From a virus, in IMG/VR virus record IMGVR_UViG_3300014501_000033, positions 1-41,351 of that record: a DNA stretch of 41,351 nt, one strand, 5' to 3'. A program made the translations under genes and the position numbers. This document shows positions 1 through 14,229 of this stretch, one piece after another (position 1 is the stretch's first letter; each line of letters opens with the position of its first letter). The notes below the pieces were generated by a model that had not been told where the DNA came from, made no database searches, and saw only the letters and a program-made list of their open reading frames with translations.

Positions 1-92
1 GGCGGATGCCGCCGCCGGGGCGGCGGAGGCGGCGGAGGCGGAGGCGGAGACGGCGGCGGCGGCGAGGGCGGCGGCGGAGGTGGCGGCGAGTA
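1..92. repeat. GC-rich GGC/GGA triplet tract
   Basis: The first 90 or so bases are almost only GGC, GGA and GCG triplets. Every frame is open, giving Gly-rich, Ala/Glu-rich or, on the other strand, Pro- or Ala-rich peptides, so the tract alone cannot show which frame is used. It lies at the window edge, where low-complexity DNA could also have stopped or misled an assembly. Confidence 0.7.
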
Positions 93-142
93 AGACCCTA
101 GACTTTATTGCAATTGCTCATAAAGCAGTTGACGAAGGATGA
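2..142 (+). CDS. Ala/Glu-rich protein, C-terminal part (5' end outside or across the junction)
   Basis: The frame beginning at base 2 is open to TGA at 140-142. It gives an Ala/Glu-rich, probably helical segment (many AAE and AEA steps) and then an ordinary ending (KTLDFIAIAHKAVDEG). That non-repetitive, amphipathic end is why I prefer this frame to the poly-glycine frame that stops at 91-93. If the two window ends are joined, the frame continues back to GTG codons at 41341 and 41326, with a stop at 41305-41307. That would make a protein of only about 52-57 residues. No clear ribosome binding site is seen for those GTGs. The last codons contain the -35 box of the first early promoter. Function unknown. 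Confidence 0.4.
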   Translation, partial: ADAAAGAAEAAEAEAETAAAARAAAEVAASKTLDFIAIAHKAVDEG

Positions 143-157
143 TTGTTGGTGTATACT
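129..157 (+). promoter_or_regulatory. Early promoter P1 (sigma70-type)
   Basis: TTGACG at 129-134, exactly 17 bases, then TATACT at 152-157; predicted start near 164. The spacer also resembles that of the promoter at 5500-5528 (about 10 of 17 positions the same, both followed by AA), so the two look like copies of one early promoter type for host RNA polymerase. It would drive the whole rightward replication block. Confidence 0.8.
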
Positions 158-167
158 AATGTCCTCT

Positions 168-232
168 GCTCCGGTTCGAGAGAGTCCCTTTACCAAAGGG
201 AGCATCTAGAAGAGCTCGAACCGGGGCTTTTT
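168..232 (+). terminator. Attenuator-like hairpin with T-run at the start of the early transcript
   Basis: Arms 168-180 and 215-227 (core CCGGTTCGAG / CTCGAACCGG, 13 pairs with one G-U) are followed by TTTTT. The loop holds a second perfect hairpin, TCCCTTT (185-191) / AAAGGGA (195-201). It starts only about 4 bases after the predicted start of P1, so a transcript stopping here would be about 70 nt. It may act as an attenuator, or the product may be a small RNA; the sequence cannot decide. Confidence 0.6.
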
Positions 233-234
233 AC

Positions 235-282
235 GCGGTGACGGTATTTAGACCGATGCTAGGTGCAAATCCTGGCCACCGC
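235..282 (+). ncRNA. tRNA-like element 1 (minimal: acceptor stem + hairpin + T-arm)
   Basis: GCGGTG (235-240) pairs with CACCGC (277-282). Directly before the 3' strand is a perfect T-arm shape: CTAGG (259-263), 7-nt loop TGCAAAT (264-270), CCTGG (271-275), close to the tRNA B-box. Between them is only one hairpin, CGGT/ACCG (242-245/252-255). No CCA follows. At 48 nt it is far too short for a bacterial tRNA, so it is called a tRNA-like structure by inference only. Confidence 0.45.
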
Positions 283-613
283 TTTGCAACTAGAACAAGC
301 TAAAGAATTCGACGGCCAATTCGCCGCCGATAGGTTCGACCCGCGATTCACGACCGATAAACCCGGACCATTGCGTGTAAACGCTCTCGGTCTTTGCGTG
401 GAGATTTACACATGGCTGAACCGTCAAACTACCCTGCCTCCCCACTTGAGACAGATGATGCCCGCCTTGGCGGAAGTCCTCCGCCGCGAGGCTTCCGATT
501 GCCTGACAGCGATAGCCACCCGTCTCCCTCCACCTACCGTACACGCATCATCGACGCCATCACGGGTATTGCCTTGCGTTCCGATATCGACACCCACACT
601 AAAGGTCTCTTGA
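263..613 (+). CDS. Unknown protein, 5' half of a probably frameshifted first early gene
   Basis: This frame opens right after a TAG at 260-262, so only GTG 263, TTG 284 or later codons can start it. None has a clear Shine-Dalgarno, and TTG 284 lies just behind the tRNA-like element. Up to about base 525 the translation looks like a genuine helical protein (for example VNALGLCVEIYTWL and MMPALAEVLRREASDCLTAI). After that it turns into Pro/Ser/Thr-rich sequence typical of a wrong frame. The overlapping frame at 412-1032 shows the opposite pattern. The simplest reading is one gene of about 250 residues interrupted by a one-base shift near 515-540, where the sequence is C-rich (CTCCCTCCACC). The shift may be an assembly error, a real mutation or programmed slippage. 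No family recognised. Confidence 0.5.
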   Translation: MQILATALQLEQAKEFDGQFAADRFDPRFTTDKPGPLRVNALGLCVEIYTWLNRQTTLPPHLRQMMPALAEVLRREASDCLTAIATRLPPPTVHASSTPSRVLPCVPISTPTLKVS

Positions 614-1032
614 CTTCTTATGTGCGGTATGTGTCGCCATCGCAGGTTAGGGCCGGCCCTGGCGATTTCCCTATTACGGTTCGGCAGCATCCGACGCATG
701 ACGATGCGGCGGCCTTGGCGGGCCGCTGGTCGGATGTCCTGTGCTATCACGTTGGTGCCGCTATCTTGGATTACTACAAACTCTATCTGGATGATGTTCC
801 CGCTGGCGTCCATGCCCGCTTGGAGAAGCGGGTTGAATTATTGGAATCTATTCGGCATAGCGGGCCGGCCCAGCATCCCCGCACGGGTAATGACCGGCGC
901 GGGTGGCGTCTCTGTACGTTATTGGAGTCGGAAGACTTCAATCAGGTAGGGGAAACCAAATTCGACCGCAATCATCGCGTTGGCGACGGTCTCATTGCCT
1001 TAGCCCCGGATGACGATCTCAAGGTGGATTGA
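412..1032 (+). CDS. Unknown protein, 3' half of the first early gene (or a separate gene)
   Basis: 206 codons from ATG 412, preceded by GGAG at 400-403; a TTG six codons earlier is also possible. The first 40 or so residues are Pro/Ser-rich and look like a non-coding frame. From TYRTRIIDAITGIAL onward the protein is well ordered, with a helical stretch WSDVLCYHVGAAILDYYKLY and an acidic end. It therefore probably continues the frame that starts upstream (see the entry beginning at 263), although the RBS makes an independent start possible. The stop TGA overlaps the polymerase ATG (TGATG), which indicates translational coupling. Function unknown. Confidence 0.55.
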   Translation: MAEPSNYPASPLETDDARLGGSPPPRGFRLPDSDSHPSPSTYRTRIIDAITGIALRSDIDTHTKGLLTSYVRYVSPSQVRAGPGDFPITVRQHPTHDDAAALAGRWSDVLCYHVGAAILDYYKLYLDDVPAGVHARLEKRVELLESIRHSGPAQHPRTGNDRRGWRLCTLLESEDFNQVGETKFDRNHRVGDGLIALAPDDDLKVD

Positions 1033-3188
1033 TGCTTCTCCCGCCTCCCCCTCCACCATTCCGCATGGCTCATTTCTGGGATGAGCCGGCCATTGAGCAT
1101 TATACCGGCTTCGGGTATCCAATGCCCCTGGCTGGTCCACAAGTGCCGGGCTGGCGGGCTGTCCTGGCGAAGTGCGGCTATCCCCTGCCGGTTGTTGTCA
1201 TAGACTTTGAAACCTACTTCGATCCTGATTATTGCATGGGTGACAAGGCGGGTGCATTGTCCACGATTGAATACGTCACAGACAAGCGATTCGAGATACT
1301 CGGTTGCGGATTCACCCTGATCCGACAGCCGTTTGACGATCATCGCACCAATACCCATTTTGCATTTGGCTTGCAAGCGGTGGCAGAACGGATTGATTGG
1401 TTGCGAGGGCAATATGGCCGGCATTTTGAAGGATGCACAGTCCTGATTCAGAATGCCTCATTCGACGCGACAATCCTGGCTCGCCATTTCAGTCTTTACC
1501 CGCCCCATGTTATTGATCTCCTGGGCTTGAGCCGACACCAGAATGCCCGCCGGAAGAATGACCTCGCCCACATTTGCAAATATCTGGGCTTGGAGGACAA
1601 AGGCGATACCTCGCAATTCTCCGGGATGACGTTCCGCGAGCGGTATACGCCGGCAAAACGGGTACGCAGCAAGCTCCAAATGCCCCGGCGTCGGCCCTTG
1701 GCGACAGGGGAGCAGACTGCCGCCCTATGTGAATACGGCCGGAATGACTGTCTGCGGGAATGGGAGGGCTTCACAATTCTCCTCCCCCAACTGACAAACC
1801 CCGCTGTTGAACTTCAATGGATGCAACATTCATTGGAGATATTCACTAAGCCGGAGCTTCGCGTTGATTATCCCCTTGGCGACAGCCTTAAAGAACAGAT
1901 GCGGGCCGCGATGAATGCCGCAATTCCAGAGGGAATGACGGCGGAGGAACTACGCGGCGACATTGTTTTTGGGGGTGAGCTTTGCAAGGCGTTGGAGGAG
2001 GCGGGAGATATTCCCGCTCGGTATTATAAGCCCGGTAAGAAGGGTTATTTGCTCGCCATCGCCGCTGATGATCCTGAGCGGGAATTATTGGAGAATCATA
2101 AGTCGGATCGGGTGCGGGGGCTGATGGCCGGCCGGATCGCCTGTGATTCCTGGCCCGGCCATATCAAGCGGATAGAGAAGATTGCCGCACAATGCAAGGC
2201 CGGCGGCGATAAACTCCCCGTGCCGTTGCGATACTACGCGGCCCATACCGGCCGGTCGGGTGGCACGGAGAAGATCAATCTTGCCAATCTTGGCAGTAAA
2301 GCCCACCCGCTCATTACGGCGGTCCGTGGCGTGCTGATCCCCGATGTGGATAAGACCCTGGTGATTACCGATGCTTCGGCCATTGAAGCTCGCGGGCTGG
2401 CCTGGATCGCCGGTCAAGACGATCTTATTACGAAGTTCAAAAACGGAGAGGAGATTTACTGTGGATTCGCTGAAAAGGTGCTTGGATACCGCGTGCGCAC
2501 ACCGAATAAGAATGGAAGCATCCCAGTTATTGAACAACGCATGGGGTGGGCTAGGGACAGCGTTGGAAAAGTGGGCATTCTTGGATGCGGTTACGGAATG
2601 GGTGCCGAAAAAGCGGTCGGATATGCTGATGGCGCAATCGACTTGCCGCTTGCCGAACAACTCGTTTCTACTTATCGCAATGAGAACAAAGCAATTGTTA
2701 AGTTATGGGGGGACGTTGAGAGAGCTTTTGTATATACTGCCCGATACCGTCGAGCTTGCGAGCTACCCCGCGGATTGGCTTTCATCCCTCGCGGCAATGA
2801 TGGCGTCTCGATCCACCTCCCGAATGGGCGCCGGCTTCATTATGATTCGGTCCGACTCGCCGCCAATAAATTCGGCCGGGGCGCTGACCGCATATCCATC
2901 TTCAACAACATGAAGCAAGTCTGGGAATTCTCGTGGGGTGGTTCGCTAGTGGAGAACATTGTACAAGGGTTCTGCCGAGATATTCTGGTGGAGGCAATTC
3001 TACGATTGGAACGGAGAGGCTATCATACCGTTCTCCACAATTACGACGAATGTGTGCTTCACGTCCCGATTGCCGACGCCGACAAAGCGCTCGCGGCGAG
3101 CATCGAGGAGTTAAGCCGCGAACCGGCATGGGCGCCGGGCATCCCTCTGGCAGCGAAAGGGCAGATCGCAGAGAGGTACTGTAAATGA
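1032..3188 (+). CDS. DNA polymerase, family A, with 3'-5' proofreading domain
   Basis: 718 residues. The N-terminal exonuclease has all three Exo motifs: VIDFET (D58, E60), QNASFD (N141, D145) and YGRND (Y235, D239). The polymerase domain has motif A TDASAIEAR (D447, E452), motif B around K513 ending GCGYG, and motif C HNYDE (D672, E673). The usual VHDE of motif C is changed to NYDE and the usual FG of motif B to LG, as in divergent phage enzymes. There is no 5'-3' exonuclease domain. Start: ATG 1032 with AGGTGG just upstream, overlapping the preceding stop; a TTG one codon earlier is less likely. The stop overlaps the next start (ATGA). It is the replicative polymerase of the phage, acting with the primase-helicase at 8005. 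Confidence 0.95.
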   Translation: MLLPPPPPPFRMAHFWDEPAIEHYTGFGYPMPLAGPQVPGWRAVLAKCGYPLPVVVIDFETYFDPDYCMGDKAGALSTIEYVTDKRFEILGCGFTLIRQPFDDHRTNTHFAFGLQAVAERIDWLRGQYGRHFEGCTVLIQNASFDATILARHFSLYPPHVIDLLGLSRHQNARRKNDLAHICKYLGLEDKGDTSQFSGMTFRERYTPAKRVRSKLQMPRRRPLATGEQTAALCEYGRNDCLREWEGFTILLPQLTNPAVELQWMQHSLEIFTKPELRVDYPLGDSLKEQMRAAMNAAIPEGMTAEELRGDIVFGGELCKALEEAGDIPARYYKPGKKGYLLAIAADDPERELLENHKSDRVRGLMAGRIACDSWPGHIKRIEKIAAQCKAGGDKLPVPLRYYAAHTGRSGGTEKINLANLGSKAHPLITAVRGVLIPDVDKTLVITDASAIEARGLAWIAGQDDLITKFKNGEEIYCGFAEKVLGYRVRTPNKNGSIPVIEQRMGWARDSVGKVGILGCGYGMGAEKAVGYADGAIDLPLAEQLVSTYRNENKAIVKLWGDVERAFVYTARYRRACELPRGLAFIPRGNDGVSIHLPNGRRLHYDSVRLAANKFGRGADRISIFNNMKQVWEFSWGGSLVENIVQGFCRDILVEAILRLERRGYHTVLHNYDECVLHVPIADADKALAASIEELSREPAWAPGIPLAAKGQIAERYCK

Positions 3189-3418
3189 GAGAGCTACAAC
3201 GATTGCACAATCTCACCCAACCGCGGTATGGCGGACCTATCGACTTTGACGCCATGATGCGCTTGCGCCATGCCTGGGGTTCTGTTATCGAGACCGTCTA
3301 CGATTTTGGGTTTGGGGTGAAGGCGAGCTTTTGTCTTCTACCCGCATCTCCTGGCGAGTGGGAATGGGATATGTGGGTTTCATTTTGGCCGCATCATAAA
3401 TTTGCGTGGCAACCATGA
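3185..3418 (+). CDS. Small hypothetical protein
   Basis: 77 residues, rich in Trp and Phe towards the end (EWEWDMWVSFWPHHKFAW), no membrane segment or motif I recognise. Its ATG overlaps the polymerase stop and its stop overlaps the resolvase ATG (both ATGA), so it is tightly coupled between two replication genes. That supports it being real. Function unknown. Confidence 0.7.
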   Translation: MRELQRLHNLTQPRYGGPIDFDAMMRLRHAWGSVIETVYDFGFGVKASFCLLPASPGEWEWDMWVSFWPHHKFAWQP

Positions 3419-4005
3419 AAACTTACATAGGCATTGATCCCGGATTTACCGGCGCCATTGCCGCGGTCAGCACCCATAATGCGTGGTGCTGGGATATGCC
3501 GCTAGTGAAAGGGAGTAAGCGGACAGAACTTGATTTTCCCATGCTGTATAACATTATACTTTGCAATGGGGTTAAAGGAGAATCGGTTGCCGGCCTGGAA
3601 TGGAACACGACTCGGCCGGATAATGAGCCGGAACGCGCCTATCGTTTCGGTCTGCAAACTGGCGCCCTGGCGATGGGATTAACCGTGACTGGCATTCCTT
3701 GGCAAAGGGTCTCTCCGCAATCCTGGAAGAACCATTACAATATTCAAGGCAAGGAAAAAGACCCATGTAGCGTCGGCGCTCAGGAAGCGTGGCGCGGGCT
3801 GGACTACCCGGAGCATGATCTTATCTATGGGCCGAAGGGCGGAATTCTTGACGGCCGGCTTGACGCTTTGCTGATTGCGGTGTACATTATGCGGCAGTAT
3901 GAGCCGATCCAACCCTTGGAGCATGGTAGTTTGGCGGCGATGAAAGCTGTCCTTACATCTGGCCCACGGGGGCGTCCGGGTGGTCGGAACTTACCGAGGA
4001 TTTGA
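3415..4005 (+). CDS. RuvC-like Holliday junction resolvase
   Basis: 196 residues with the RNase H-fold acid residues of phage RuvC-like resolvases in order: IGIDPG (D8), GLE (E62) and DGRLDALLIA (D146, D150). SPQSWKNHY before the last acids is also typical. It would cut branched DNA made during replication and recombination before packaging. ATG 3415 overlaps the previous stop; a GTG three codons earlier is possible. The end is basic and Gly/Arg-rich. Neighbours (polymerase, nuclease, Sak4-like ATPase) fit a recombination-replication module. Confidence 0.85.
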   Translation: MKTYIGIDPGFTGAIAAVSTHNAWCWDMPLVKGSKRTELDFPMLYNIILCNGVKGESVAGLEWNTTRPDNEPERAYRFGLQTGALAMGLTVTGIPWQRVSPQSWKNHYNIQGKEKDPCSVGAQEAWRGLDYPEHDLIYGPKGGILDGRLDALLIAVYIMRQYEPIQPLEHGSLAAMKAVLTSGPRGRPGGRNLPRI

Positions 4006-4007
4006 AT

Positions 4008-4178
4008 ATGACCGTCAGCGAATTGATTGTACAATTACAGAATTTGCCGCCGGAAACACGGGTCTATGTCGCAAGAGAGATTTGGTATTGTGACGCCACC
4101 GACACCTGCATAGAATGCAAAACCCCTGCGATAAAATACGATGCGAGCGATGAATCGGTAGTATTGGAGCCAAAATGA
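4008..4178 (+). CDS. Small hypothetical phage protein (56 aa)
   Basis: ATG 4008 with GAGGA at 3995-3999, 2 bases after the resolvase stop; its own TGA overlaps the ATG of the nuclease (ATGA). The protein starts MTVSELIVQLQNLPPETRVY, a layout common in small phage proteins (a short helix, then an LPPETRVYV turn and strand). It has two cysteines in a CIEC group and a Cys before it (YCDATDTC), so metal binding is conceivable. Exact coupling on both sides supports it. Function unknown. Confidence 0.75.
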   Translation: MTVSELIVQLQNLPPETRVYVAREIWYCDATDTCIECKTPAIKYDASDESVVLEPK

Positions 4179-5356
4179 GCCAACAATACCGATTATCCGC
4201 CACCAGCATCGCGGCGTTCAAGACGTGCCCGGTCAAATTCCGGCTCGGTTTCATTGAGGGACTGAAACCCGACAAGGATACCGAATCTCAACGGATGGGT
4301 ACGAATTGGCACAAGCTCCATGAACTTGCCGGCGCGGTAAAGGGTGATGAGGCGGCAAAGATTGACGCGGTTATCACACATCTGAACGATGCTTATCGCA
4401 CTCCCCCCATCAGCGTCACTCCCTTCGATTGGGAGGTCGAGCGCGAGGTTCTCTTTCAATCCTTCATCGGTTATTTGTGGCGATGGACTAACGATCCGGT
4501 TGAAATCCTGGCCAGCGAAATCCCGTTTGAACTTCCCCTCATGTCGCCAAAGGTCAACCTACCTTTGCCGACCTCCGACGTAGTTCGCGTCGGCAAGATC
4601 GACCACATTGTTCGATGGCAGGGCGCCGTCTGCAATCTTGAGCGTAAATCAACATCCCGCTCGATTACATCCGACTCGGATTACTGGGATAAGGCCAAGA
4701 AGGATACGCAAGTATCCATGTATGCGCTGGCGTTCAAGGACATCCATGCGGCCGGCGGATTCTCCCATCTGGCACCGCTACCCTTGAAAGAGGGAGAGGC
4801 AATGCCGCGGATTGGCAATACCCTCTTCGATGTCTGGCATAAGCCGACTATCAAGCCCTCCTCCATCACCCAGGCTGAGACCGCGGAATTCATCAAGACC
4901 GATATGTACTGCGGTCGTAAGTTCACAGTAACTTGCGTGGAGAAGGTCGGCAGCGGCGAGATCGCGGCGACTGTGGACGGCGAGCCGGTGACAATTGAAA
5001 TGGGCAAACGCGGTTACGCATTCCGGGAGACCCCGGCCATGTTTGGCGCCCGGCTTCTGCAAGACATCCAAGTTCGTCCCGACTTCTATTACCAGCGGCG
5101 CGAAATCGTTCGCACGGAGGCGGAACTTGAGGCGTTCAAGCATCAATTGTTCGCTGTCTATCAGGCACAGAAGACGTTTGAGCGGTCGGGCTGCTGGTTT
5201 GAGAATGAACAGCAATGTCGGGCGACTTTCCCTTGCCCATTTATTCCCATTTGCTATGGTGGTGGTTCTGAGGTAGTATGTGATGGCAAGACCGTGCCTA
5301 CTGGTTTTAGACGACATCACGTTGATGTCACCGTTAACGGTCGGGAGATTGAATAA
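4175..5356 (+). CDS. PD-(D/E)XK nuclease, Cas4/RecB-like, probable iron-sulfur type
   Basis: 393 residues. The N-terminus LSATSIAAFKTCPVKFRL is the usual opening of RecB/Cas4-like nucleases. The active site is seen as GKIDHI (D143), LERKS (E156, K158) and the following Q179-xxx-Y183. Cys18 together with C348, C354 and C360 (spacing C-x5-C-x5-C) matches the four-cysteine arrangement that holds a 4Fe-4S cluster in Cas4 and AddB; C340 is a further candidate. Expected role: exonuclease for recombination, working with the Sak4-like ATPase downstream. There is no cas gene or CRISPR array here, so a CRISPR role is not supported. Start ATG overlaps the preceding stop; the stop overlaps the next ATG (TAATG). 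Confidence 0.85.
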   Translation: MSQQYRLSATSIAAFKTCPVKFRLGFIEGLKPDKDTESQRMGTNWHKLHELAGAVKGDEAAKIDAVITHLNDAYRTPPISVTPFDWEVEREVLFQSFIGYLWRWTNDPVEILASEIPFELPLMSPKVNLPLPTSDVVRVGKIDHIVRWQGAVCNLERKSTSRSITSDSDYWDKAKKDTQVSMYALAFKDIHAAGGFSHLAPLPLKEGEAMPRIGNTLFDVWHKPTIKPSSITQAETAEFIKTDMYCGRKFTVTCVEKVGSGEIAATVDGEPVTIEMGKRGYAFRETPAMFGARLLQDIQVRPDFYYQRREIVRTEAELEAFKHQLFAVYQAQKTFERSGCWFENEQQCRATFPCPFIPICYGGGSEVVCDGKTVPTGFRRHHVDVTVNGREIE

Positions 5357-5520
5357 TGGATCGAGAGACACAAGCGGAACTTGATGATGACGAATCCCAG
5401 GCTGCGGAGCAACGCTCCCAGGAGCCGCAACCGGGGGATGATCCTGGCTTTGCCCGGCGCTTGGAGGCAGGCTCGGCCATGTTATCTGATGAGGATGATT
5501 TGACCGACGATGAATTGTAG
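5356..5520 (+). CDS. Small acidic hypothetical protein (54 aa)
   Basis: ATG 5356 overlaps the nuclease stop (TAATG) and the frame runs to TAG 5518-5520. The product is strongly acidic (DDDES near the start, DEDDLTDDEL at the end) with no hydrophobic core, so it is probably flexible or a DNA mimic-like partner. Its last codons contain the -35 box of the second early promoter. Function unknown. Confidence 0.65.
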   Translation: MDRETQAELDDDESQAAEQRSQEPQPGDDPGFARRLEAGSAMLSDEDDLTDDEL

Positions 5521-5528
5521 GGTATACT
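5500..5528 (+). promoter_or_regulatory. Early promoter P2 (sigma70-type)
   Basis: TTGACC at 5500-5505, 17 bases, TATACT at 5523-5528, predicted start near 5535. The spacer resembles that of P1. The start falls on the 5' strand of the closing stem of the RNA element that follows, so this promoter seems built to produce that structured leader in front of the Sak4-like gene. Confidence 0.8.
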
Positions 5529-5532
5529 AACC

Positions 5533-5687
5533 ATGCGATTATAATCAAGTGGGAAACCTTGAACCGGGTTAAGCCTGAGTGAAGTACCCCGGTGGGACAC
5601 GGTGAAAGAGTGAGCCGAAGGCATTATTTCACAAAGGCGCTCGCGTAACCATACAGCCTCGCTGGTTTGATTCCAGCATAATCGCAT
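5533..5687 (+). ncRNA. tRNA-like structured leader 2
   Basis: A 10-bp closing stem, ATGCGATTAT (5533-5542) with ATAATCGCAT (5678-5687). The 3' strand directly follows a perfect T-arm: GCTGG (5661-5665), loop TTTGATT, CCAGC (5673-5677). Two bases after the 5' strand is a D-arm-like hairpin, TCAAG / CTTGA (5545-5549/5558-5562), with a GG-containing 8-nt loop, then ACCGGG / CCCGGT (5563-5568/5588-5593) with a 19-nt loop where the anticodon arm would be. A long extra region holds GTGAAA / TTTCAC (5602-5607/5627-5632). No CCA end. RBS AGGAG lies just behind it. Probably a 5' leader that mimics tRNA shape; function unknown. Confidence 0.6.
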
Positions 5688-5704
5688 TTATTAGGAGTTG
5701 AACA

Positions 5705-6619
5705 ATGCCCCCACCCCCGGCTCGAAAGCCCCCGATGCCCGCAGGAATCAGTAAACCACCTCCCCCACCAGCGGCCGGCCACACCCCGGCTGCATTTACG
5801 ATGGATGCGGTGGATACTACTGGCATCGGCAAGACCATCGTTTTGTATGGTAAGTCGGGTGGGGGCAAGACCACGTTGGCCAGCATGGCACCCGGCGCCC
5901 GCTTCATCCCTCTGGACGACGGTAGTAAGGACATTCTCCATCCGAAGACCGGCGCCAAGCTAATAGGCTTGAAGCGGCAGGACAAGCTCGCGCTCACCTT
6001 TCAGGATGTCCGGGATGCCTTGCATAATCCGACTCTCTGGCCGGCCGGATCAACGTGTGTAATCGACACCGGCACGAAGCTAGAGGCAATTGCCGAACGA
6101 TACGTCTTTGAGAACGTACCCGGCCCGGCGTCATGCCCGAAGTGCAAGAACATTGAGGACTACGGGTACGGCAAAGGATACAAGCACCTGCTGGATGCTA
6201 TGCGGCTGCTTTTTGGCGACTTGGACCGTCTCAAATCTACCGGCGTCAATATCATCATTCTGGCACAGCTTGCACAGGCGACGGTGAGCAATCTTGCGGG
6301 CTTGGACTACTTGGAAGATGGGCCGAAGTTCTCTAACGCCAAAGCCTACCCCGTTCGTACAGAAGTTGTCGAGTGGGCTGACCACGTGTTCCGCCTGGGG
6401 CATGAAGATGTGTCGGTGGCGACGGCGAGCAGGGACGCGAAGCGTGGCAAGGCGTCCGGCTCGACAGATCGGATCATCTATACCCAGCCGGAGGTTTACT
6501 ACCTCGCCAAGAGCCGGCCCATCAATGGCAAGCATCTGCCACCCCTCATCAGTTTCGATGCCCCAGACAATGATTCGCTCTGGGACATGATCTTCAATGG
6601 CAATATACCGGAGGCATAA
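5705..6619 (+). CDS. RecA-like P-loop ATPase, Sak4-like recombinase
   Basis: 304 residues. A Pro-rich N-terminus (1-35) precedes Walker A GKSGGGKT (49-56) and a Walker B-like strand TCVIDTGTK (D121). A CPKC pair (144-147) may hold metal. The short RecA-like core with an early Walker A and the context (nuclease, SSB-like protein, resolvase) match phage AAA_24/Sak4-type proteins, which promote single-strand annealing recombination with SSB. RBS AGGAG at 5693-5697. The stop overlaps the GroES-like start (TAATG). The Sak4 name is an inference from architecture and context. Confidence 0.75.
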   Translation: MPPPPARKPPMPAGISKPPPPPAAGHTPAAFTMDAVDTTGIGKTIVLYGKSGGGKTTLASMAPGARFIPLDDGSKDILHPKTGAKLIGLKRQDKLALTFQDVRDALHNPTLWPAGSTCVIDTGTKLEAIAERYVFENVPGPASCPKCKNIEDYGYGKGYKHLLDAMRLLFGDLDRLKSTGVNIIILAQLAQATVSNLAGLDYLEDGPKFSNAKAYPVRTEVVEWADHVFRLGHEDVSVATASRDAKRGKASGSTDRIIYTQPEVYYLAKSRPINGKHLPPLISFDAPDNDSLWDMIFNGNIPEA

Positions 6620-6945
6620 TGCTTCAACCGCGTAACACCCTGGTCGTCGTCGAGTTGATTGAGAAGCAAGAGGATGTGGTCGGCAAGGTCATCATCCCCA
6701 ACAACCACGACATGTATACCCATGCAAAGGTCGTCGCCATCGGTCCCGGCAATGTGTCCGCGGCTGGCGCCCGTAGTGAGACCTTCGATCTTAGAGTCGG
6801 TCAAACCGTGCTGGTCAAGCACAAAGAGGGCCGGCCCGTTGGCGGCGGTCGGTTTGCCGTATCCGATCTTGGCGTCGAGTATCGGGAGGATTTTGCGCGT
6901 TACAAGATTTTCGAGCAAACCTCCATCCTGGGCATCATCGTCTAA
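6619..6945 (+). CDS. GroES-like co-chaperonin (Cpn10 family)
   Basis: 108 residues with the Cpn10 pattern: N-terminal strand LQPRNTLVVVELIEKQE, VGKVIIPN, the KVVAIGPG turn, then VGQTVLVKH and a final IV-rich strand (ILGIIV). The segment after VIIPNN sits where the GroES mobile loop would be expected. The size is near that of GroES. Phage homologues such as T4 gp31 adapt host GroEL for capsid folding. Here it is unusually placed in the replication block rather than beside the capsid genes. Its start overlaps the ATPase stop (TAATG). Confidence 0.75.
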   Translation: MLQPRNTLVVVELIEKQEDVVGKVIIPNNHDMYTHAKVVAIGPGNVSAAGARSETFDLRVGQTVLVKHKEGRPVGGGRFAVSDLGVEYREDFARYKIFEQTSILGIIV

Positions 6946-6989
6946 CTATTTCTACGGGCGTGAACTGAAACAATTACTAGGAGAACAAC

Positions 6990-7868
6990 ATGGCTGAGAT
7001 TGATCGCGTCGGTAGCTACATCTTTGAGATCGTCGGCTCCGGGTTCGGAACCACGGTCAAGGGATATCCTCAATGGATTCTGAGTGTTAAGGCACTCAAG
7101 TTCTGGGCAAACTCCCCTGACCTCTTGACGCATTACCAACTGGATGCCCCGGCCTGGGTTGATTGGGATCAGGAACAACAAGGCATCGGCTACCTCTGTC
7201 TGTTCAATTCCGCCGACAATTACGATGCCAATACCGCCCTCCTGAACGCCAAGCAGGCCCAGGTCGCGGTTGGCTGGGACGGCTCATCTTTTGATCCGTT
7301 CGCGGATGGCACATTCATCGGCAAGCGAATTCTTGGTCGTATCGAGGAGCATACATACAACGAAAAGACGACTCTCCGTCTGAATTGGATTGATGCCCCC
7401 GACGCCAATCCCGAACGCCAGATCAAGAGCCTGGACGCGCCAGCTATCAAGGCACTCAACAGCAAGCTGAAATTCGGCGCTCCTCCGAAGGCGGTCGGCG
7501 CTTCGGCGCCTGTCAAGGCGCCTCCTGTGCCTGCGGCCCCGGTGGCGGCATCCGCCGCCCCGGCGGCCGCCGCTCCGCCGCAAGCCAGGCCTGGGCGTCC
7601 GCCGAAGAATAAGGCTGCGGCGGCGGTTGCCGCCGCTGCAACCCCGCCGGCACCAGCCGCTCCCCCTACTGAGTTTGCCACCGAGGCTGCGGCCTGGGAA
7701 TACGCGGCCCCCAAGAAGCCGGATACCACGACTGACGCGGAATTCGCCGATGCGTGGCTGTCGTCCCGCGGCGAGGTTGCCGGCGACCGAGATGAGGCGG
7801 CGCTGACACCGGCTGATTGGGCTAAGGTCGTCGCCATCACGTTCAAGGATTTGGCGATTACGGCCTAA
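6990..7868 (+). CDS. SSB-like / DUF669-like DNA-binding protein
   Basis: 292 residues, RBS AGGAG at 6980-6984. Residues 1-160 form an ordered domain (YIFEIVGSGFGTTVKGYPQW near the start, IGKRILGRIEEHTYN later). An Ala/Pro-rich linker (about 165-225) carries an AT-hook-like GRPPKNK (202-208), and a short acidic helical domain ends the protein. This layout and its place after the Sak4-like ATPase are usual for phage single-strand binding proteins, but I cannot identify the fold from sequence alone. Confidence 0.55.
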   Translation: MAEIDRVGSYIFEIVGSGFGTTVKGYPQWILSVKALKFWANSPDLLTHYQLDAPAWVDWDQEQQGIGYLCLFNSADNYDANTALLNAKQAQVAVGWDGSSFDPFADGTFIGKRILGRIEEHTYNEKTTLRLNWIDAPDANPERQIKSLDAPAIKALNSKLKFGAPPKAVGASAPVKAPPVPAAPVAASAAPAAAAPPQARPGRPPKNKAAAAVAAAATPPAPAAPPTEFATEAAAWEYAAPKKPDTTTDAEFADAWLSSRGEVAGDRDEAALTPADWAKVVAITFKDLAITA

Positions 7869-7872
7869 CCTC

Positions 7873-7995
7873 GTGGCGGCATTTGCAGGCGCTATGCTTC
7901 CTCCTCATAAAATATAGGAAGCAAGTGGTGATGGGCTAAGGATAAGTCACCAGCCGATTAAAGCCGGAGATGCGGGTTCAAGGCCCGTTCGCCAC
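7873..7995 (+). ncRNA. tRNA-like element 3
   Basis: GTGGCGG (7873-7879) pairs with TCGCCAC (7989-7995), 7 pairs with one G-U, the 3' strand directly following a T-arm: GCGGG (7972-7976), loop TTCAAGG, CCCGT (7984-7988). Inside are GCA/TGC around a GG-containing loop (7885-7897), TTCCT / AGGAA (7898-7902/7916-7920) around a 13-nt loop containing CTCATAA, and GGTGA / TCACC (7927-7931/7947-7951). It lacks T8, has an oversized anticodon-like loop and about 50 extra bases, so it is not a standard tRNA. It ends 9 bases before the primase-helicase ATG, which has no Shine-Dalgarno. Confidence 0.55.
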
Positions 7996-8004
7996 ACTAC
8001 ACCA

Positions 8005-10326
8005 ATGGCAATTGACTTTGCAAAGTTATCCGACAAGTTCCGCGGCAATGCAGTTTGGGGAATCGCCGAGCATTTAGCTAATCGGCTCAATGTATCCGTC
8101 GCTTCCTTGGACCGACTTGGCCTTGGATATGTTCCAATTGTTGAACTTAGTAAGGGGCCAAATTACGATGGATTTTTTTGCCTTCCTCAACGCGATGCAG
8201 ATGGTTTCATCACTGGCATCAGTCTTAGGGGCCGTGATGATTTTAAGTGCATGTATCCTGGTTCAAAGCTGGGTCTATTTTACGAAGTCAATCCGGAGCA
8301 TCGTCAGGGAGTCAACACCAACTATGACCCCGGACCCCAAAACTGGGTTAGAGCCGACAGCGATCACATCTGCCCCATCTGCAATCAAGGAAAAGGATGT
8401 CTGATATCCACCCCTGACTGCGGCCTTCCGGCCGCGGCAATCTGTGTCAGAGTGAAAGAGGGCGCGAGCCGGCCCATGCTGAACGGCTACTTGCATCATC
8501 TTGACGGCCAAGACACTGCCGACCAGACCGCTTCCCCGCTTCCCCCATCCGAAGGCAGCGTCCTCATTGTGGAAGGCGCCAGCGATGTAGCCGCGGCGAT
8601 GGATATGGGCTTTGTCGCGGTCGGTAGGCCCAGCGCCCAAGGCGGTATCCAGCTGCTCCCCGACCTGATACGGGGCCGGCAGTGCATCATCGTGGGGGAG
8701 AACGACCAGAAGAAGGATGGAAAATGTCCCGGCCGGGAGGGGATGTATGCAACTTTTGACGGCATTAAGCGCGCCGCCAAGGGTGTTCGCATGGTCATGC
8801 CCCCACCTAACATCAAAGACCTTCGGGCATGGCGGGCCAAGCACAGACTTACTAAGGCACAATTCCTTGAATACGTCGCCGCGAAGGGCATGGATCAAAT
8901 CGACAATGCGGTTTTGCCTGACGATATGCCGACAACTATTGCGCGACGATTCCTCGCGGATTTGCACCGGCTGGGTGGCCGGCTTACGTTACGTCGTTGG
9001 GGCGGTGAGTGGTATATTTACAACGGCACCTGCTACGAACGCCTCGATAACGAACGATTCCTCGCGCCGATGTATCAATGGGCCTACGGCAAGCTCGTGG
9101 CGGTGCCGACAGGCAAGGGCGAGAACTTCATTCCTCTCAAGATGAAGCCCAGCCTCCGAGGGGACGTGGCCGAGGCTGCTATTTCCGAAACCCTGGTGCC
9201 AGAGAAGGTGCTGCCCGTGTGGATCAATAACACCAATGGTGACAGTATTAAGGATTTAATTGTCTTCAAAAATGGGGTGTTGAATGCCCGTAAGTTTCTC
9301 GCCGGCGTCATCGAATCAGTTAGTTTTGCGGAACCGACACCAGACTTCTTTACTGTGTCGTCGCTCCCTCATCTATTCGACTCCACCGCTAAAGCCCCCA
9401 AATGGGAATGGTTTCTTAATTCAACTCTTGGCGATGATCCAGACAAAGTGGCGCTCTTGCAGGAATGGTTTGGTTACTGTCTGGTGCCGGATACGAGCCT
9501 GCAAAAAATGATGTTCTTCCGCGGCCCTCCGAGCGCCGGCAAAGGCACGATCCTGGCGGTACTGCGATGGATGATCGGCGACGATCAGAGTGCCGTCGCC
9601 ACCTTTGACGGATTGGCCGGCCCATTCGGTCTCGCGCCCCTGGTTAATAAACTCATCTGCGTCCTGGGCGACGTGCAGACCCCCAAGGGTGCCGACGCAA
9701 ACCGCGGGCTTGAAGTTCTCCTGGGCCTTACCGGAGAGGATAGTGTCACAATCAACCGTAAAAACGTCGCGCAAATCCCCCTCCACGATTTATACTGCCG
9801 GATAACGATGGCGGCAAATAGGTTCATCGACGTGCCAGACTACGCCGGGGCTATGGCTCGGCGACTCAACATCATCGACTTCACCCGTTCGTTTAAAGAT
9901 AACCCAGACACGACGCTTCGTGACTCCCTGCGTGATGAGATTCCGGGGATCATCATCTGGTCCCTAACCGGCTTGAAGCGAATACGCCACACGAAAAAAT
10001 TTACAACCCCTCGTACCAGCCGACTTGCTTTAGATGAATGGAGAGTGTATACTTCTCCAATCGCCGGCTTCCTTGAAGAATGCTGCCGGCCAGACCCGGA
10101 GGAACGTGAGAGTCAGGTTGAGCTATTTGATTGTTGGGTTAAGTGGTCCGAGGAGCGACGCATATCACCCATGCCCAGCCCGCGATTTTTTGAGGGTGTG
10201 CGATTTGCAGCACCGTACACGACGGTCATTACCGAGGAATCAGCGGGTCGGATTACGAAGTATTTTGAGGGACTGCGGCTGCGATCCAAAGTGGCAAAAC
10301 AATTTCTTGGGAGACCAGAACGATGA
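8005..10326 (+). CDS. Primase-helicase (zinc finger, TOPRIM, SF3/D5-type helicase)
   Basis: 773 residues. Cysteines C123, C126, C132 and C139 suggest a zinc-binding primase segment. A TOPRIM domain follows (LIVEGASD, E190 and D194; GEND, D234). The C-terminal half is a superfamily 3 helicase: Walker A GPPSAGKGT (507-515), Walker B strand LICVLGD (D556), sensor residue N605 in MAANRF, and the arginine finger ARRLNIIDF. It is the D5/P4-type replicative primase-helicase that partners the polymerase at 1032. ATG 8005 has no recognisable ribosome binding site, while the tRNA-like element ends just upstream. The stop overlaps the next ATG. Confidence 0.9.
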   Translation: MAIDFAKLSDKFRGNAVWGIAEHLANRLNVSVASLDRLGLGYVPIVELSKGPNYDGFFCLPQRDADGFITGISLRGRDDFKCMYPGSKLGLFYEVNPEHRQGVNTNYDPGPQNWVRADSDHICPICNQGKGCLISTPDCGLPAAAICVRVKEGASRPMLNGYLHHLDGQDTADQTASPLPPSEGSVLIVEGASDVAAAMDMGFVAVGRPSAQGGIQLLPDLIRGRQCIIVGENDQKKDGKCPGREGMYATFDGIKRAAKGVRMVMPPPNIKDLRAWRAKHRLTKAQFLEYVAAKGMDQIDNAVLPDDMPTTIARRFLADLHRLGGRLTLRRWGGEWYIYNGTCYERLDNERFLAPMYQWAYGKLVAVPTGKGENFIPLKMKPSLRGDVAEAAISETLVPEKVLPVWINNTNGDSIKDLIVFKNGVLNARKFLAGVIESVSFAEPTPDFFTVSSLPHLFDSTAKAPKWEWFLNSTLGDDPDKVALLQEWFGYCLVPDTSLQKMMFFRGPPSAGKGTILAVLRWMIGDDQSAVATFDGLAGPFGLAPLVNKLICVLGDVQTPKGADANRGLEVLLGLTGEDSVTINRKNVAQIPLHDLYCRITMAANRFIDVPDYAGAMARRLNIIDFTRSFKDNPDTTLRDSLRDEIPGIIIWSLTGLKRIRHTKKFTTPRTSRLALDEWRVYTSPIAGFLEECCRPDPEERESQVELFDCWVKWSEERRISPMPSPRFFEGVRFAAPYTTVITEESAGRITKYFEGLRLRSKVAKQFLGRPER

Positions 10327-10685
10327 ATGAAATTAGTCGAAATCTTGTTCTTATTTCCTATCAGTGCGCGGCCGAGGTAAATCGCGCCGAAGAAAAGCAC
10401 CCTCCTATGAACTCTTTGCATGAGGGATATGCGGTAATCCTTGAAGAACTCGATGAGGTTTGGGATGAGATAAAGAAGAAAACCCCCGATCTTCATCGGA
10501 TCAGAAATGAGTTGATCCAGACCGCGGCTATGTGCATTCGCCTGATCGACAATGTAGTAACACGACCGATGGAACGTCATATAGACGATCAGGTTCAAAT
10601 ACTGGCCAGTGCGGCATCCGCCGCGGTTAGGGCGCATAAAGCGGCAGAATATGAGCGTCAACTTCTTATTAAACCGGAGAACTAA
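10323..10685 (+). CDS. MazG-like nucleotide pyrophosphohydrolase
   Basis: 120 residues, mostly helical. ILEELDEVWDEIKKK gives the E-E-x-D/E cluster of MazG-type enzymes, and a second helix RNELIQTAAMCIRLID matches the following metal-binding helix (E and D residues). Expected to hydrolyse nucleoside triphosphates to monophosphate and pyrophosphate, shaping the nucleotide pool. ATGA overlap with the primase-helicase. A second nucleotide enzyme follows 2 bases later. The family assignment is from this pattern only. Confidence 0.65.
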   Translation: MNEISRNLVLISYQCAAEVNRAEEKHPPMNSLHEGYAVILEELDEVWDEIKKKTPDLHRIRNELIQTAAMCIRLIDNVVTRPMERHIDDQVQILASAASAAVRAHKAAEYERQLLIKPEN

Positions 10686-10687
10686 TC

Positions 10688-11668
10688 ATGCCAAACGAGA
10701 CCTTCACTACCGGCGCCCAACGGGATCAACAGGGCGACAAGTTGCGATATGATCTGATGTCCCCCTTGGCGGCGAAGCGGATCGCCAAAGTGTTCACCGA
10801 CGGCGCCAAGCGCTATGGGGATCGTAATTGGGAGAAGGGTATGCCTTTTACCCGCGTCCTCGCGTCGGCACTACGGCACCTGCACGCCTACCAGCTTGGC
10901 GATAAGGGCGAGGACCATCTCGCCCAACTCGCGTGGAACGTGGAGGCACTCCTGCACTATGAAGAGGCAATCAAGGGTGGCACCTTGCCGGCGAACTTGA
11001 ATGATCTGCCGTTGTATGGCGATGCTCATGCCTACCTCAATGCACTGGTAAATGCGGCGTCGTGGGGGGTGAAGGCGGCGTCCACTACCTGTGGCAATAC
11101 TTGCGATGCGGAACCCATCAAGCCGCTCCCTCAAAACGCCTACATGTACCGCGGCCCATTTGCGGGAATGCGACTTAAAGTAATCCAGCGTCACGAGACT
11201 TGGTATGATGTGAATCTTAGCGATTACACATATGGGCAATGGATGTACAGGATTTCTGAATTCTTCGCCGATTCCACCCCGCAGAAGGAGGACACCGTAT
11301 ACCTCGCCGGCCCAATGCGCGGCCTCCCCGACTTCAATTTTCCGGCCTTTGACAAAGCTCGTGATTGCCTGACAGAGAGGGGCTGGAATGTGATATCACC
11401 GGCCGATATGGATCGGGCTGATCCTGATGATGCTAAGGATCAGACAAAGTTTGCCGCCCGCGATACGAAAGCAATCATTGAGAAGTGCGGTACTATCGCG
11501 TTGCTCCCAGGTTGGGAGTGCAGCGACGGCGCTACCGCGGAATTCTTCCTGGCGCGATGGTTGGGGTTGAAGATTATCAGTATATGGACTGATGACGATG
11601 GCGCGATGGAAATGCGCATTAGTGATCCTGATGAACGGGCGGCTGCGTATCGCATAATAGGACGTTAA
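10688..11668 (+). CDS. Fusion: dATP/dGTP diphosphohydrolase-like (DUF5664) + deoxyribosyltransferase-like (DUF4406)
   Basis: 326 residues in two recognisable domains. Residues about 15-93 (GDKLRYDLMSPLAAKRIA, then GAKRYGDRNWEKG, ALRHLHAY and HLAQLAWNVEALLHYEE) look like the N-terminal dATP/dGTP diphosphohydrolase domain of phages, related to MazZ. Residues about 202-300 (VYLAGPMRGLPDFNFPAF, ISPADMDRAD, LPGWECSDGATAEF) look like DUF4406, related to nucleoside deoxyribosyltransferases. The middle (110-195) is not recognised. RBS GGAG. Together with the MazG-like neighbour it forms a purine-pool module. Known Z-genome phages carry MazZ with PurZ, but no PurZ or DatZ is visible here, so base replacement is not claimed. 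Confidence 0.75.
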   Translation: MPNETFTTGAQRDQQGDKLRYDLMSPLAAKRIAKVFTDGAKRYGDRNWEKGMPFTRVLASALRHLHAYQLGDKGEDHLAQLAWNVEALLHYEEAIKGGTLPANLNDLPLYGDAHAYLNALVNAASWGVKAASTTCGNTCDAEPIKPLPQNAYMYRGPFAGMRLKVIQRHETWYDVNLSDYTYGQWMYRISEFFADSTPQKEDTVYLAGPMRGLPDFNFPAFDKARDCLTERGWNVISPADMDRADPDDAKDQTKFAARDTKAIIEKCGTIALLPGWECSDGATAEFFLARWLGLKIISIWTDDDGAMEMRISDPDERAAAYRIIGR

Positions 11669-11671
11669 CCC

Positions 11672-12382
11672 ATGCGTAATCTCATCATCGGCGATCTACA
11701 TAATCCCTGGACGCATCCCGGCTACTTGCCGTTTTGCCGTGATCTATATTCGCGCCACAAATGTGACAATGTGATCTTCATCGGTGATGTTGTTGACTGG
11801 CACGCAATCTCATTCCACCCCAGGAACCCCGATGCGCCCGGCCCAAAAGACGAGTATACGCGGACGAAGGAACGGGTTCAAGAGTGGTATAAGGCGTTCC
11901 CGAAGGCCAAAGTCTGTATCGGGAACCATGATGAGCGTGTGGTCCGACTTGCCGGTACGGTTAATATCCCGGAGGATTTTCTCAAGACGTACTCGGAAAT
12001 GTGGGAAACTCCTGGCTGGACCTGGGATCGTTCCTTCATTGCCGATGATGTATACTACTTTCACGGCACGGGAACGGGCGGAGTGCATCCCGCGTTTACG
12101 TCGATGTGCAAGCAACTGATGAGTGTAGTGCAGGGGCATATACACTCCGCGTCGGGCATCAAATGGAGGGCCAATCCTCGGCGCCGTATCTTTGGTATGG
12201 ACACAGGTTGCGGCATTGACGACAAGGCTATTGCGTTTGCTTACGGTTGGAATCAACAGATTAGGAGCATCGTTAGCGCGGCAGTCGTGCTGGATGGAAT
12301 CCCGATCTTAGAAGTGACGCCGATAGGTGACGGTGAGAAATATCATCGCTCCCGATTCGGCAAAAAGACGAAAGGCAGGTAG
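11672..12382 (+). CDS. Calcineurin-like metallophosphoesterase
   Basis: 236 residues with the full set of metal-binding motifs: GDLH (D8, H10), GDVVDWH (D39), GNHDE (N85, H86), YFHG (H131) and GHIH (H156, H158). Such phage enzymes act on phosphoester bonds in nucleotides, nucleic acids or proteins; the substrate cannot be told. It follows the nucleotide-pool genes by 3 bases, so a nucleotide-related role is plausible. Confidence 0.85.
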   Translation: MRNLIIGDLHNPWTHPGYLPFCRDLYSRHKCDNVIFIGDVVDWHAISFHPRNPDAPGPKDEYTRTKERVQEWYKAFPKAKVCIGNHDERVVRLAGTVNIPEDFLKTYSEMWETPGWTWDRSFIADDVYYFHGTGTGGVHPAFTSMCKQLMSVVQGHIHSASGIKWRANPRRRIFGMDTGCGIDDKAIAFAYGWNQQIRSIVSAAVVLDGIPILEVTPIGDGEKYHRSRFGKKTKGR

Positions 12383-12386
12383 TTTA

Positions 12387-12932
12387 ATGCGTTACGCTCT
12401 ACTCGTTTTTGTTTCGCTGCTGGCAGCCTGCTCATCACTCCCCAAGGCGACCCAGCAGACCATTCAGTCCGGACACAATCAGGCGGCGATTGCCGCCGGG
12501 AAAGCCCAGGATGCCGGCACAATGGCCGACGCAAAGGGTGCCGCCTCGCCGACCTCACATCCAATTGATGCTTCGGATGTCGTGGTGAAGGACACGCGCG
12601 CGTCATTGCGTGTGATCTTCATTGTGTCCTTCATTGCCTTGCTGGTCAGTATCGGGTTAATGTTTACACCGTTGTCTTTGGTGTCAAAGATCGCGGTTCC
12701 CGTGGCCGGCGCCCTGGCGGTCGGCTCCCTGGCCGGTGAGATTGCGGTGCCGTTCTTCCCCTACATCCTGGCGGGATTAGGGGTGCTGGCGCTCGCGCTG
12801 GCAGTGTATGAATTGATCGTCGCCAAGGGCAATGTGGCCCTGGCGATTACGGACACGGAGGCATTGATCGTGCCGGCGAAAACTACCGCGGCTCCGACCG
12901 TGGCCCCCAACAACCATCCCCCGGTGAAGTGA
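12387..12932 (+). CDS. Polytopic membrane lipoprotein
   Basis: 181 residues from ATG 12387 (AGGTAG upstream; a longer upstream frame is not needed). Signal peptide MRYALLVFVSLLAAC with a lipobox ending at Cys15, a Gln/Ala-rich stretch, then three predicted membrane segments at about 75-95, 102-122 and 124-146, and a polar tail. A lipid-anchored N-terminus plus later membrane segments recalls unimolecular spanins, which have one. Three segments are unusual, so lysis is only a suggestion. The stop overlaps the next ATG (TGATG). Confidence 0.75.
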   Translation: MRYALLVFVSLLAACSSLPKATQQTIQSGHNQAAIAAGKAQDAGTMADAKGAASPTSHPIDASDVVVKDTRASLRVIFIVSFIALLVSIGLMFTPLSLVSKIAVPVAGALAVGSLAGEIAVPFFPYILAGLGVLALALAVYELIVAKGNVALAITDTEALIVPAKTTAAPTVAPNNHPPVK

Positions 12933-13288
12933 TGCGGCCGATCCGAACCCGCGAAGAATTGATTGACTTCGCTGCCAGAAGGGCGCCCTCCGCGGCATGC
13001 GCTACCGCGTTGAAAGACATGGAGGGCGCCCTTGTGCTAGGGGCGCACGATCCCGCCGTCGCTGGATTGCCGGGCTGGATCATCAAGGTGACATCCCAGT
13101 ACGGGCGGGTTTGGATTCTCGCGGTCGGAATGGATGCCGACAATCAAGAGTATATATGCCGGCAAGTCGATGAAATTCCCGACACTTATACCGGCTGCGT
13201 GACCGGCCGGCCGGGTATTATGAACGGCGACGACACGGAATACAGGAGGGCGTTGCGATGTCAGGTCCACCCCGAAGGCTCCTACTAG
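12932..13288 (+). CDS. Hypothetical protein (118 aa)
   Basis: ATG 12932 overlaps the lipoprotein stop. The protein is soluble, with four Cys residues and a central strand-rich part (WIIKVTSQYGRVWILAVGMD). It does not show the catalytic pattern of any lysis enzyme I know. Its last 31 bases overlap the next gene, whose Shine-Dalgarno AGGAGGG lies inside this one. Function unknown. Confidence 0.7.
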   Translation: MRPIRTREELIDFAARRAPSAACATALKDMEGALVLGAHDPAVAGLPGWIIKVTSQYGRVWILAVGMDADNQEYICRQVDEIPDTYTGCVTGRPGIMNGDDTEYRRALRCQVHPEGSY

Positions 13289-13491
13289 CCGCCGTCCCGG
13301 ATTATGTCAAGGAACGATTCGGCAAGGATATCAGCCGGCAATCAGCGTACAATTGGGTGAGCGTTGGCCGGAATAATGTCAAACTGCGGATCGCCCAGGT
13401 AGTGGCGCTTGGCGGACCGCATACTATGGTGCGTGTGACTTATACTAATTGGGTGGATGAGTTTGTTTTGCGGATGGGAGGACTGGCATGA
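13258..13491 (+). CDS. Small HTH-like protein (excisionase/regulator type)
   Basis: 77 residues; a strong Shine-Dalgarno AGGAGGG at 13244-13250 decides ATG 13258. The segment VPDYVKERFGKDISRQSAYN followed by WVSVGRNN and KLRI resembles the helix-turn-helix of small MerR/Xis-like phage proteins, where the turn before the wing reads NGRN. It may be a DNA-binding regulator. With no integrase in view, excision is not implied. Confidence 0.55.
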   Translation: MSGPPRRLLLAAVPDYVKERFGKDISRQSAYNWVSVGRNNVKLRIAQVVALGGPHTMVRVTYTNWVDEFVLRMGGLA

Positions 13492-13760
13492 ACAAGAACC
13501 CCATTATATATGTGTATGCAAGATTGGATAAACCAATTCATGCCGCTGCAACCCCGGCGGCGCCAGCGGGATTCGACACCGTGTTTGTCGCATCGACTTA
13601 CGAACATACTTTGGATGCACGACAGAATGAAATAAATCGAGAGAAAGCAATAGCAGAAATTGAAGCGCTTGTCGCCGGTCGCGCATCTATAGAAGGATTC
13701 AGTTATAGCAATCCAATGGGGGGTGGACATGATAATCGACAGCGACAAGGATCAAGTTGA
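13488..13760 (+). CDS. Hypothetical protein (90 aa)
   Basis: ATG 13488 overlaps the preceding stop (ATGA). Contains a short Pro/Ala-rich stretch, then a charged helix (EINREKAIAEIEALV). The last 32 bases overlap the next gene. No family recognised. Confidence 0.6.
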   Translation: MNKNPIIYVYARLDKPIHAAATPAAPAGFDTVFVASTYEHTLDARQNEINREKAIAEIEALVAGRASIEGFSYSNPMGGGHDNRQRQGSS

Positions 13761-13989
13761 TTTACGCCAGCGGATGGGGAGAGATCGGCTGCGGTTGGCT
13801 CTACAAGCATACAACTTAGCCCAAACGAAGCATGAGCTAGTGTTGTGGCATCGAGAAGGCGAATGGCGCATCGCTCCTGATGCTGTGCTTTATAATCTGA
13901 TTGAGCGCTGGACCCCGGATGGCGATCCGATGATCCTCTATTGGGAGCAATGCCGGCCTATCCAATCACCGACCGGGCTTTCGATTTGA
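13729..13989 (+). CDS. Hypothetical protein, last gene of the rightward block (86 aa)
   Basis: ATG 13729 has a GGGGGGTGG Shine-Dalgarno; a GTG two codons earlier is less likely. Soluble, charged, Trp-containing protein (LVLWHREGEWRIAPDAVLY) of unknown function. Its 3' end overlaps the 3' end of the leftward holin-like gene by 32 bp. No terminator is visible between the two converging transcription units. Confidence 0.65.
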   Translation: MIIDSDKDQVDLRQRMGRDRLRLALQAYNLAQTKHELVLWHREGEWRIAPDAVLYNLIERWTPDGDPMILYWEQCRPIQSPTGLSI

Positions 13990-14227: not shown

Positions 14228-14229
14228 GA

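Follow-up and report, generated by a model that had tools for sequence, protein, structure and literature searches.

A phage family of putative tRNA mimics, located between a conserved early gene and the primase gene, was found to be well supported by comparisons among related viral sequences. The stretch of DNA under study, a virus record of 41,351 bp referred to as the window, represents an uncultivated phage, in which three tRNA-like elements, designated E1, E2, and E3, occupy gaps of the rightward gene block. The sequence-only reading of this DNA had proposed a tRNA-mimic family for all three. This proposal held for the position of E3, where divergent relatives, compensatory base changes, and a conserved gene context speak for it, whereas the comparative support for E1 and E2 appears to be thinner.

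Gap elements of the early gene block

In the rightward block lie the genes for an A-family DNA polymerase, a resolvase-like protein, a PD-(D/E)XK nuclease, and a Sak4-like ATPase (PHROGs and Pfam), together with those for a GroES-like protein, a 292-aa protein, and the primase (searched against PHROGs, Pfam, and PDB sequences). The gene for the 292-aa protein (6990–7868, plus strand) lies upstream of E3 and of its counterparts in other phages; its product matched no entry in PHROGs, Pfam, or PDB sequences, and a profile search recovered the gene from 25 viral loci. The primase gene (8005–10326, plus strand) was assigned to PHROG 6088. The GroES-like (Cpn10) gene sits within the replication block at 6619–6945. 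No integrase was detected among the window proteins searched, and neither ARAGORN nor Rfam reported a tmRNA in the window. Megablast revealed no near-identical known phage, and comparison of the primase with GenBank phages yielded distant, partial matches only. In the genome collection, mostly contigs of Planctomycetota metagenome-assembled genomes (MAGs) were matched by the primase; since many of these matches were short, a Planctomycetota host is to be taken as a hint only. The MAG contigs L193–L195 carry no element.

As had been read from the sequence, each of the three gaps contains, on the plus strand, an acceptor-like stem directly adjoined by a T-arm whose loop is a T-loop-like heptamer. 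The loops (TGCAAAT, TTTGATT, and TTCAAGG for E1, E2, and E3, respectively) and the acceptor stems of 6, 10, and 7 pairs stood as described, but the T stem, given as 5 bp throughout, comprises 6 bp in E1, which is why a strict 5-bp search misses this element. The descriptor applied here called for a T stem of 5–6 bp, an acceptor of at least six pairs abutting the T stem, and a T-loop agreeing with at least four of the five positions of T-T-C-R-A, and it finds E1, E2, and E3. In dinucleotide shuffles of the three gaps, matches were obtained in 38, 16, and 1 of 20,000 trials, and none of the 20,000 shuffle sets had matches in two or three gaps; because the descriptor was written after the elements had been seen, these values serve as a guide and not as a blind test. 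The independent test of the gap elements is provided by the relatives. Chance was rejected, on the basis of shuffles, for the three gaps jointly and likewise for the family at the E3 position. Shuffling of the whole window gave approximately 0.7 matches per 41 kb on both strands, and the descriptor also matches a few sites inside coding regions of the window, so that E1 taken alone is only moderately convincing.

E1 (235–282, plus strand) is a mini element composed of the 6-bp acceptor, a single 4-bp hairpin, and the T-arm. Its tRNA-like fold is the minimum-energy fold (z −3.45), mini matches appeared in 5 of 20,000 shuffles of its gap, and all 48 positions are identical in the ~95% relatives L007–L009. 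Upstream of E1, a promoter-like site (TTGACG-17-TATACT) was located at 129–157 on the plus strand. Together with a second site (TTGACC-17-TATACT) at 5500–5528, it represents the best sigma-70-like site in positions 1–14300, both with 10/12 matches. As the number of promoter-like sites does not exceed that in shuffled sequences (12 compared with 10.4), it is their identity and place, not their number, that argue for them. The E1 leader additionally contains a long plus-strand hairpin (GCTCCGGTTCGAG...CTCGAACCGGGGC, 168–227; fold z −3.53 for 160–300), which is not a conserved terminator, because the T run behind its 3' arm is gone in L007 and L009, where this arm reads CCGGAGC (G.T to A-T).

The small gene following E1, ORF A (284–613, plus strand), probably starts at the TTG at 284, one base past the element. 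A homologue in L105 (41% over 63 aa, E 1e-8) suggests that the gene is genuine. The position of E1 has its closest parallel in the distant relative L131, in which a 59-nt element lacking an anticodon arm lies upstream of the polymerase block. Between the window and L009, not one base differs over 231–466, a run of 236 bases that takes in E1 together with the beginning of ORF A; differences do occur in the leader before this run and in the genes after it, suggesting a constraint that reaches past E1. L009 also features, at 2714–2908, a second copy of the promoter and first part of the leader (84% similar to window 1–195), which does not include E1.

E2 (5533–5687, plus strand) is a large element in which the 10-bp acceptor and the T-arm enclose a D-like hairpin and a long arm, a plan shared with the 135-nt element of L093. 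The tRNA-like fold was computed as its minimum-energy fold (z −2.80), and a 10-bp acceptor with a T-arm occurred in none of 20,000 shuffles of its gap. Neither E1 nor E2 matched an RNA family in Rfam, including the tRNA family RF00005. The promoter-like site at 5500–5528 (plus strand) places the expected transcription start at the 5' end of E2, and the next gene encodes the Sak4-like ATPase (5705–6619, plus strand; PHROG 124, Pfam AAA_24) and has a Shine-Dalgarno sequence (SD). The ~95% relatives L005–L009 are without E2; in these, the promoter and the ribosome-binding site stay and the ~155 bp between them are gone. An exact search for the junction of promoter and E2 recovered near-identical contigs only. 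E2 would accordingly represent either a gain in the window or a loss in L005–L009, and it lacks covariation support. An intron-containing tRNA was considered for E2 and rejected, as the element probably falls short of the length that a group I intron would need, and archaeal-type introns are not expected in bacteria.

E3 (7925–7995, plus strand) is a 71-nt cloverleaf with a 7-bp acceptor, a D-arm, an anticodon arm, and a 5-bp T-arm, followed by a discriminator-like A at 7996. The suggested check with ARAGORN and a search with Rfam both resulted in a tRNA call at 7925–7996, the RF00005 score of 37.5 bits being above the gathering cut-off of 29 bits. The previously assigned extent of 7873–7995 was not sustained, since the acceptor copy at 7873 (GTGGCGG) loses its pairing in the ~95% relatives. 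In the same relatives the acceptor starting at 7925 is kept, its 3' strand changing from TCGCCAC to TCACCAC (G.T to A-T), and a repair in the anticodon stem was observed as well. The 13-nt loop and about 50 extra bases formerly ascribed to E3 turned out to be sequence upstream of the real element. A hairpin (GCTTCCT...AGGAAGC, 7896–7922, plus strand), seen in the fold of 7869–8000 and identical in the ~95% relatives, is located there, just upstream of E3.

The anticodon loop of E3 (CGATTAAA), which is identical in L005, L006, L007, and L009, is 8 nt long and has no U33, in contrast to decoding tRNAs, whose loop has 7 nt, U33, and a purine at position 37. The claim that none of the elements is a normal tRNA was right in substance, even though E3 is a near-regular cloverleaf called by the tools, and it was correctly noted that none of the three ends in an encoded CCA. 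For E3, minimum-energy folding favours a long hairpin, by approximately 7 kcal/mol over the cloverleaf; among 22 parsed elements, the tRNA-like fold is the minimum for 13, E1 and E2 included. All three elements precede genes, as described before, but E1 and E2 lie directly after promoter-like sites rather than before them, and no promoter-like site was found in the E3 gap. A terminator-like site (a stem-loop followed by a T run) was found at none of E1, E2, and E3; a T run is present at the elements of some relatives (L086, L158, and L167).

Counterparts of E3 in related phages

Viral relatives were gathered by scans with the early proteins. Between the 292-aa gene and the primase gene, 15 out of 83 distinct regions contained a tRNA-like element in sense orientation, compared with none in antisense, the number of independent cases being below 15 because the window, L110, and L111 are near relatives. 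Shuffles of the same regions gave a mean of 0.20 and never more than 2; when the strict T-loop was required, 14 elements were left, compared with 0.017 in shuffles. Counted by upstream regions of primase genes, 14 out of 92 had an element. Apart from E1 and E2, no sense element was found upstream of the polymerase, nuclease, RusA-like, and GroES-like genes, and none upstream of the 292-aa, dGTPase-like, and phosphatase-like genes. Most relatives are without such an element, some of them featuring another hairpin at the same place.

The elements at the E3 position range between 47 and 135 nt in size (47–155 nt when E2 is included), with a constant acceptor/T core. Minis of 47–53 nt were found in L152, L156, and L158, the 135-nt element of L093 represents the upper end, and forms of 65–88 nt lie in between; L086 has two elements in tandem. 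A further element in L011 (12426–12494), read by eye, contains a T-stem mismatch and was therefore missed by the descriptor. The gene downstream of it is not a primase, and a link to primase genes only was consequently discarded. A minus-strand match in L012 (4841–4896) was left aside, because it is antisense to the operon.

As an independent model of tRNA character, RF00005 matched 18 of 20 chosen records, 14 of them over the cut-off, a tally that includes matches away from the E3 position and is no estimate of prevalence, because the records had mostly been picked for having an element. Blind application of RNAalifold to 15 full-length elements returned the acceptor and the T stem, with two-sided compensation in 9 of the 12 acceptor/T pairs. 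Regarding the question of covariation or stem loss in relatives, both stems are thus compensated at the E3 position, but E2 is missing altogether in L005–L009. Set beside the ~12 bp that the stacked acceptor and T stems form in tRNA, the joint helix amounts to 12 bp in E1 (6 + 6) and E3 (7 + 5), and is longer in E2 (10 + 5) and in several relatives (13–15 bp).

The anticodon arms, read by eye, proved to be variable. Loops of 8 nt were found in E3, L105, L149, and L188, loops of 9 nt in L011 and L113, and one of 6 nt in L103. U33 is absent in L099, L115, L187, and L012, and in others the arm is cut down or missing. Among the elements read, the one of L153 has the only canonical anticodon loop; a separate tRNA in the genome of L152 (L189) has a canonical loop, too.

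In a primase tree that was built by a quick method, rooted at the midpoint, and contained several weak forks, the element is present in seven of the eight rows of the window's clade and in all four of another clade, and at least seven element changes were counted overall. The primases diverge to ~35–47% identity while the acceptor and T stems stay compensated. An identical stretch of 22 nt (GAGGCACCGCGATACAAAGCGG), which covers the anticodon arm, is shared by L105 (8955–8976) and L149 (7903–7924); since these belong to different primase clades, exchange of elements is suggested.

Further tRNA-like elements were noticed just upstream of genes judged ParB-like by eye, namely, in L032 (6550–6652, 103 nt) and L042 (8258–8308, 51 nt). 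As the Sak4-like protein is all that relates these phages to the window, such elements may be more widespread.

Candidate functions in the early messenger RNA

The explanation we lean towards, tentatively, is that the elements act in cis as tRNA mimics in the early mRNA and punctuate it by means of host tRNA-processing enzymes. The features that these enzymes recognize, a T-loop on a T-arm that stacks with the acceptor stem, would be kept, and the parts needed for decoding would be lost or remodelled. The place is one in cis, which for E3 lies within an operon. The polycistronic mRNA would be cut at the element by the RNase P of the host, perhaps together with RNase Z or a different 3' nuclease, a cut on the 5' side leaving a primase message with a tRNA-like 5' cap and a cut on the 3' side leaving a near-leaderless primase start codon. 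For E1 and E2, located just downstream of promoters, initiation of transcription would by itself put the same device at the 5' end of the transcript; a 5' cut at E2 would do almost nothing, because the element begins at the expected transcription start. The roles proposed in the sequence-only reading (RNA stability, RNase P processing, and translation control) would fit the anatomy.

The ATG of the window primase has no SD in front of it, the duplex with the anti-SD being calculated at +0.7 kcal/mol, compared to values between −1.5 and −8.4 for the other early genes, and an SD of −4 kcal/mol was reached by one of eight primases close behind an element (a small number, including two pairs of close relatives) versus 45% of 58 others. 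Several elements lie 2–11 nt ahead of a start codon without SD, the distance being 9 nt for E3, 7 nt for L086, L011, and L105, and 2 nt for L152 and L156. A 3' cut would explain such starts, because the folded element should otherwise block the ribosome. The argument describes a tendency, since in about half of the cases the spacing is wide enough for an SD, which is then present.

Cleavage of comparable RNAs by RNase P has been described for the phage M3 RNA, the C4 antisense RNA of P1/P7, the T4 gene 32 mRNA, and polycistronic mRNAs (PMC11143913), indicating that phage and messenger RNAs can be tRNA-like enough. These non-tRNA substrates are single cases, whereas the elements of this study form a position-conserved family with a tRNA core found by the Rfam tRNA model. 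Counting against punctuation are the helices of 13–15 bp in several elements, the lack of an encoded CCA, the better hairpin of E3, and the relatives managing with a plain hairpin. A broader version of the proposal, which we consider doubtful, has modular cis punctuation, in which host enzymes would cut the mimics to give SD-less or near-leaderless starts of replication genes, and the elements would turn over (47–155 nt), pass between phages, and arise at promoters (E2).

Of two rivals that carry weight, translation control without cleavage, with the folded element serving as a roadblock, a switch, or a tRNA mimic docking to the ribosome or EF-Tu and setting the downstream output, appears rather unlikely. 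The short gaps to SD-less starts (E3, L086, L011, L105, L152, and L156) and the two competing folds of E3 would agree with it. However, the distance to the start codon is anywhere between 2 and 11 nt, and greater still in the roughly one half of the elements that are followed by an SD, which is ill-suited to precise docking; only E3 and L099 showed a competing fold that differs greatly in energy.

The second rival, somewhat weaker and unlikely in our view, is a generic structured spacer, where any stable structure would protect or separate messages (attenuation or stability of 3' and 5' ends) and the tRNA shape would have been captured from tRNA genes. Consistent with this, the 120 nt past the upstream gene are, throughout the group, rich in structure (median z −1.64 vs. 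−0.09 in coding controls), hairpins are often there in element-less relatives, and the 22-nt piece common to L105 and L149 is as expected from capture or exchange. Such a spacer, however, need not keep a compensated T stem, a T-loop, and an abutting acceptor within elements of 47–53 nt, and the lack of terminator-like sites at E1, E2, and E3 also speaks against it.

A decoy or sponge acting in trans on host factors that bind tRNA, or on defence enzymes that cut it, would account for a tRNA shape without decoding ability and for the variable anticodon arms, but is very improbable, as the fixed operon interval and the closeness to start codons point to a role in cis. Decoding phage tRNA genes, working or decaying, are the least probable of all: although many elements were called by ARAGORN and RF00005 and canonical loops exist in L153 and L189, nearly all loops are of 6, 8, or 9 nt or are without U33, a normal anticodon arm is lacking in E1, E2, and the minis, and the acceptor and T stems stay compensated across the diverged primases.

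Relation to known systems and further observations

Viral tRNA mimicry, RNase P cuts in mRNA, and mitochondrial tRNA punctuation are already known. The punctuation of mitochondrial transcripts by RNase P and RNase Z resembles the arrangement described here in having tRNA shapes between genes, sometimes nearly touching the next start; its tRNAs decode, however, whereas the phage elements, judged from their sequences, mostly cannot. The tRNA-like structures of plant RNA viruses are likewise viral mimics with remodelled inner parts, but are located at the 3' ends of RNA genomes, in contrast to elements lying 5' of genes in the mRNA of a DNA phage. Armless mitochondrial tRNAs are reduced, lack arms, and are similar in size to E1 and the elements of L152, L156, and L158. 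They keep the anticodon arm, whereas the phage minis lose it and keep the T-arm.

In the open-access literature, which was partially covered, no published precedent for tRNA-like leaders in dsDNA phages was found, nor any report of non-decoding leaders of this shape that recur at a conserved position in DNA phages. If the proposed function is true, DNA phages would have evolved a mitochondrial-like tRNA punctuation from shapes stripped of decoding, and the elements would constitute a natural series of minimal tRNA mimics (47–155 nt) with which the needs of RNase P, RNase Z, and other tRNA-binding proteins could be probed. It would also imply a possible new route to translation start without an SD, and that tRNA scanners wrongly label some such phage elements as tRNAs and overlook others.

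Beyond the gap elements, several features of the window were recorded. At 10688–11668, an N-terminal dATP/dGTP diphosphohydrolase domain is fused to a DUF4406/nucleoside deoxyribosyltransferase-like domain. The structural block features a glycosyltransferase-like gene (32514–33725, minus strand), near which a portal protein matching the SU10 portal family is encoded. The start of the contig (1–90) consists of a GGC/GCC-rich, repeat-like stretch, and similar stretches occur in L009.
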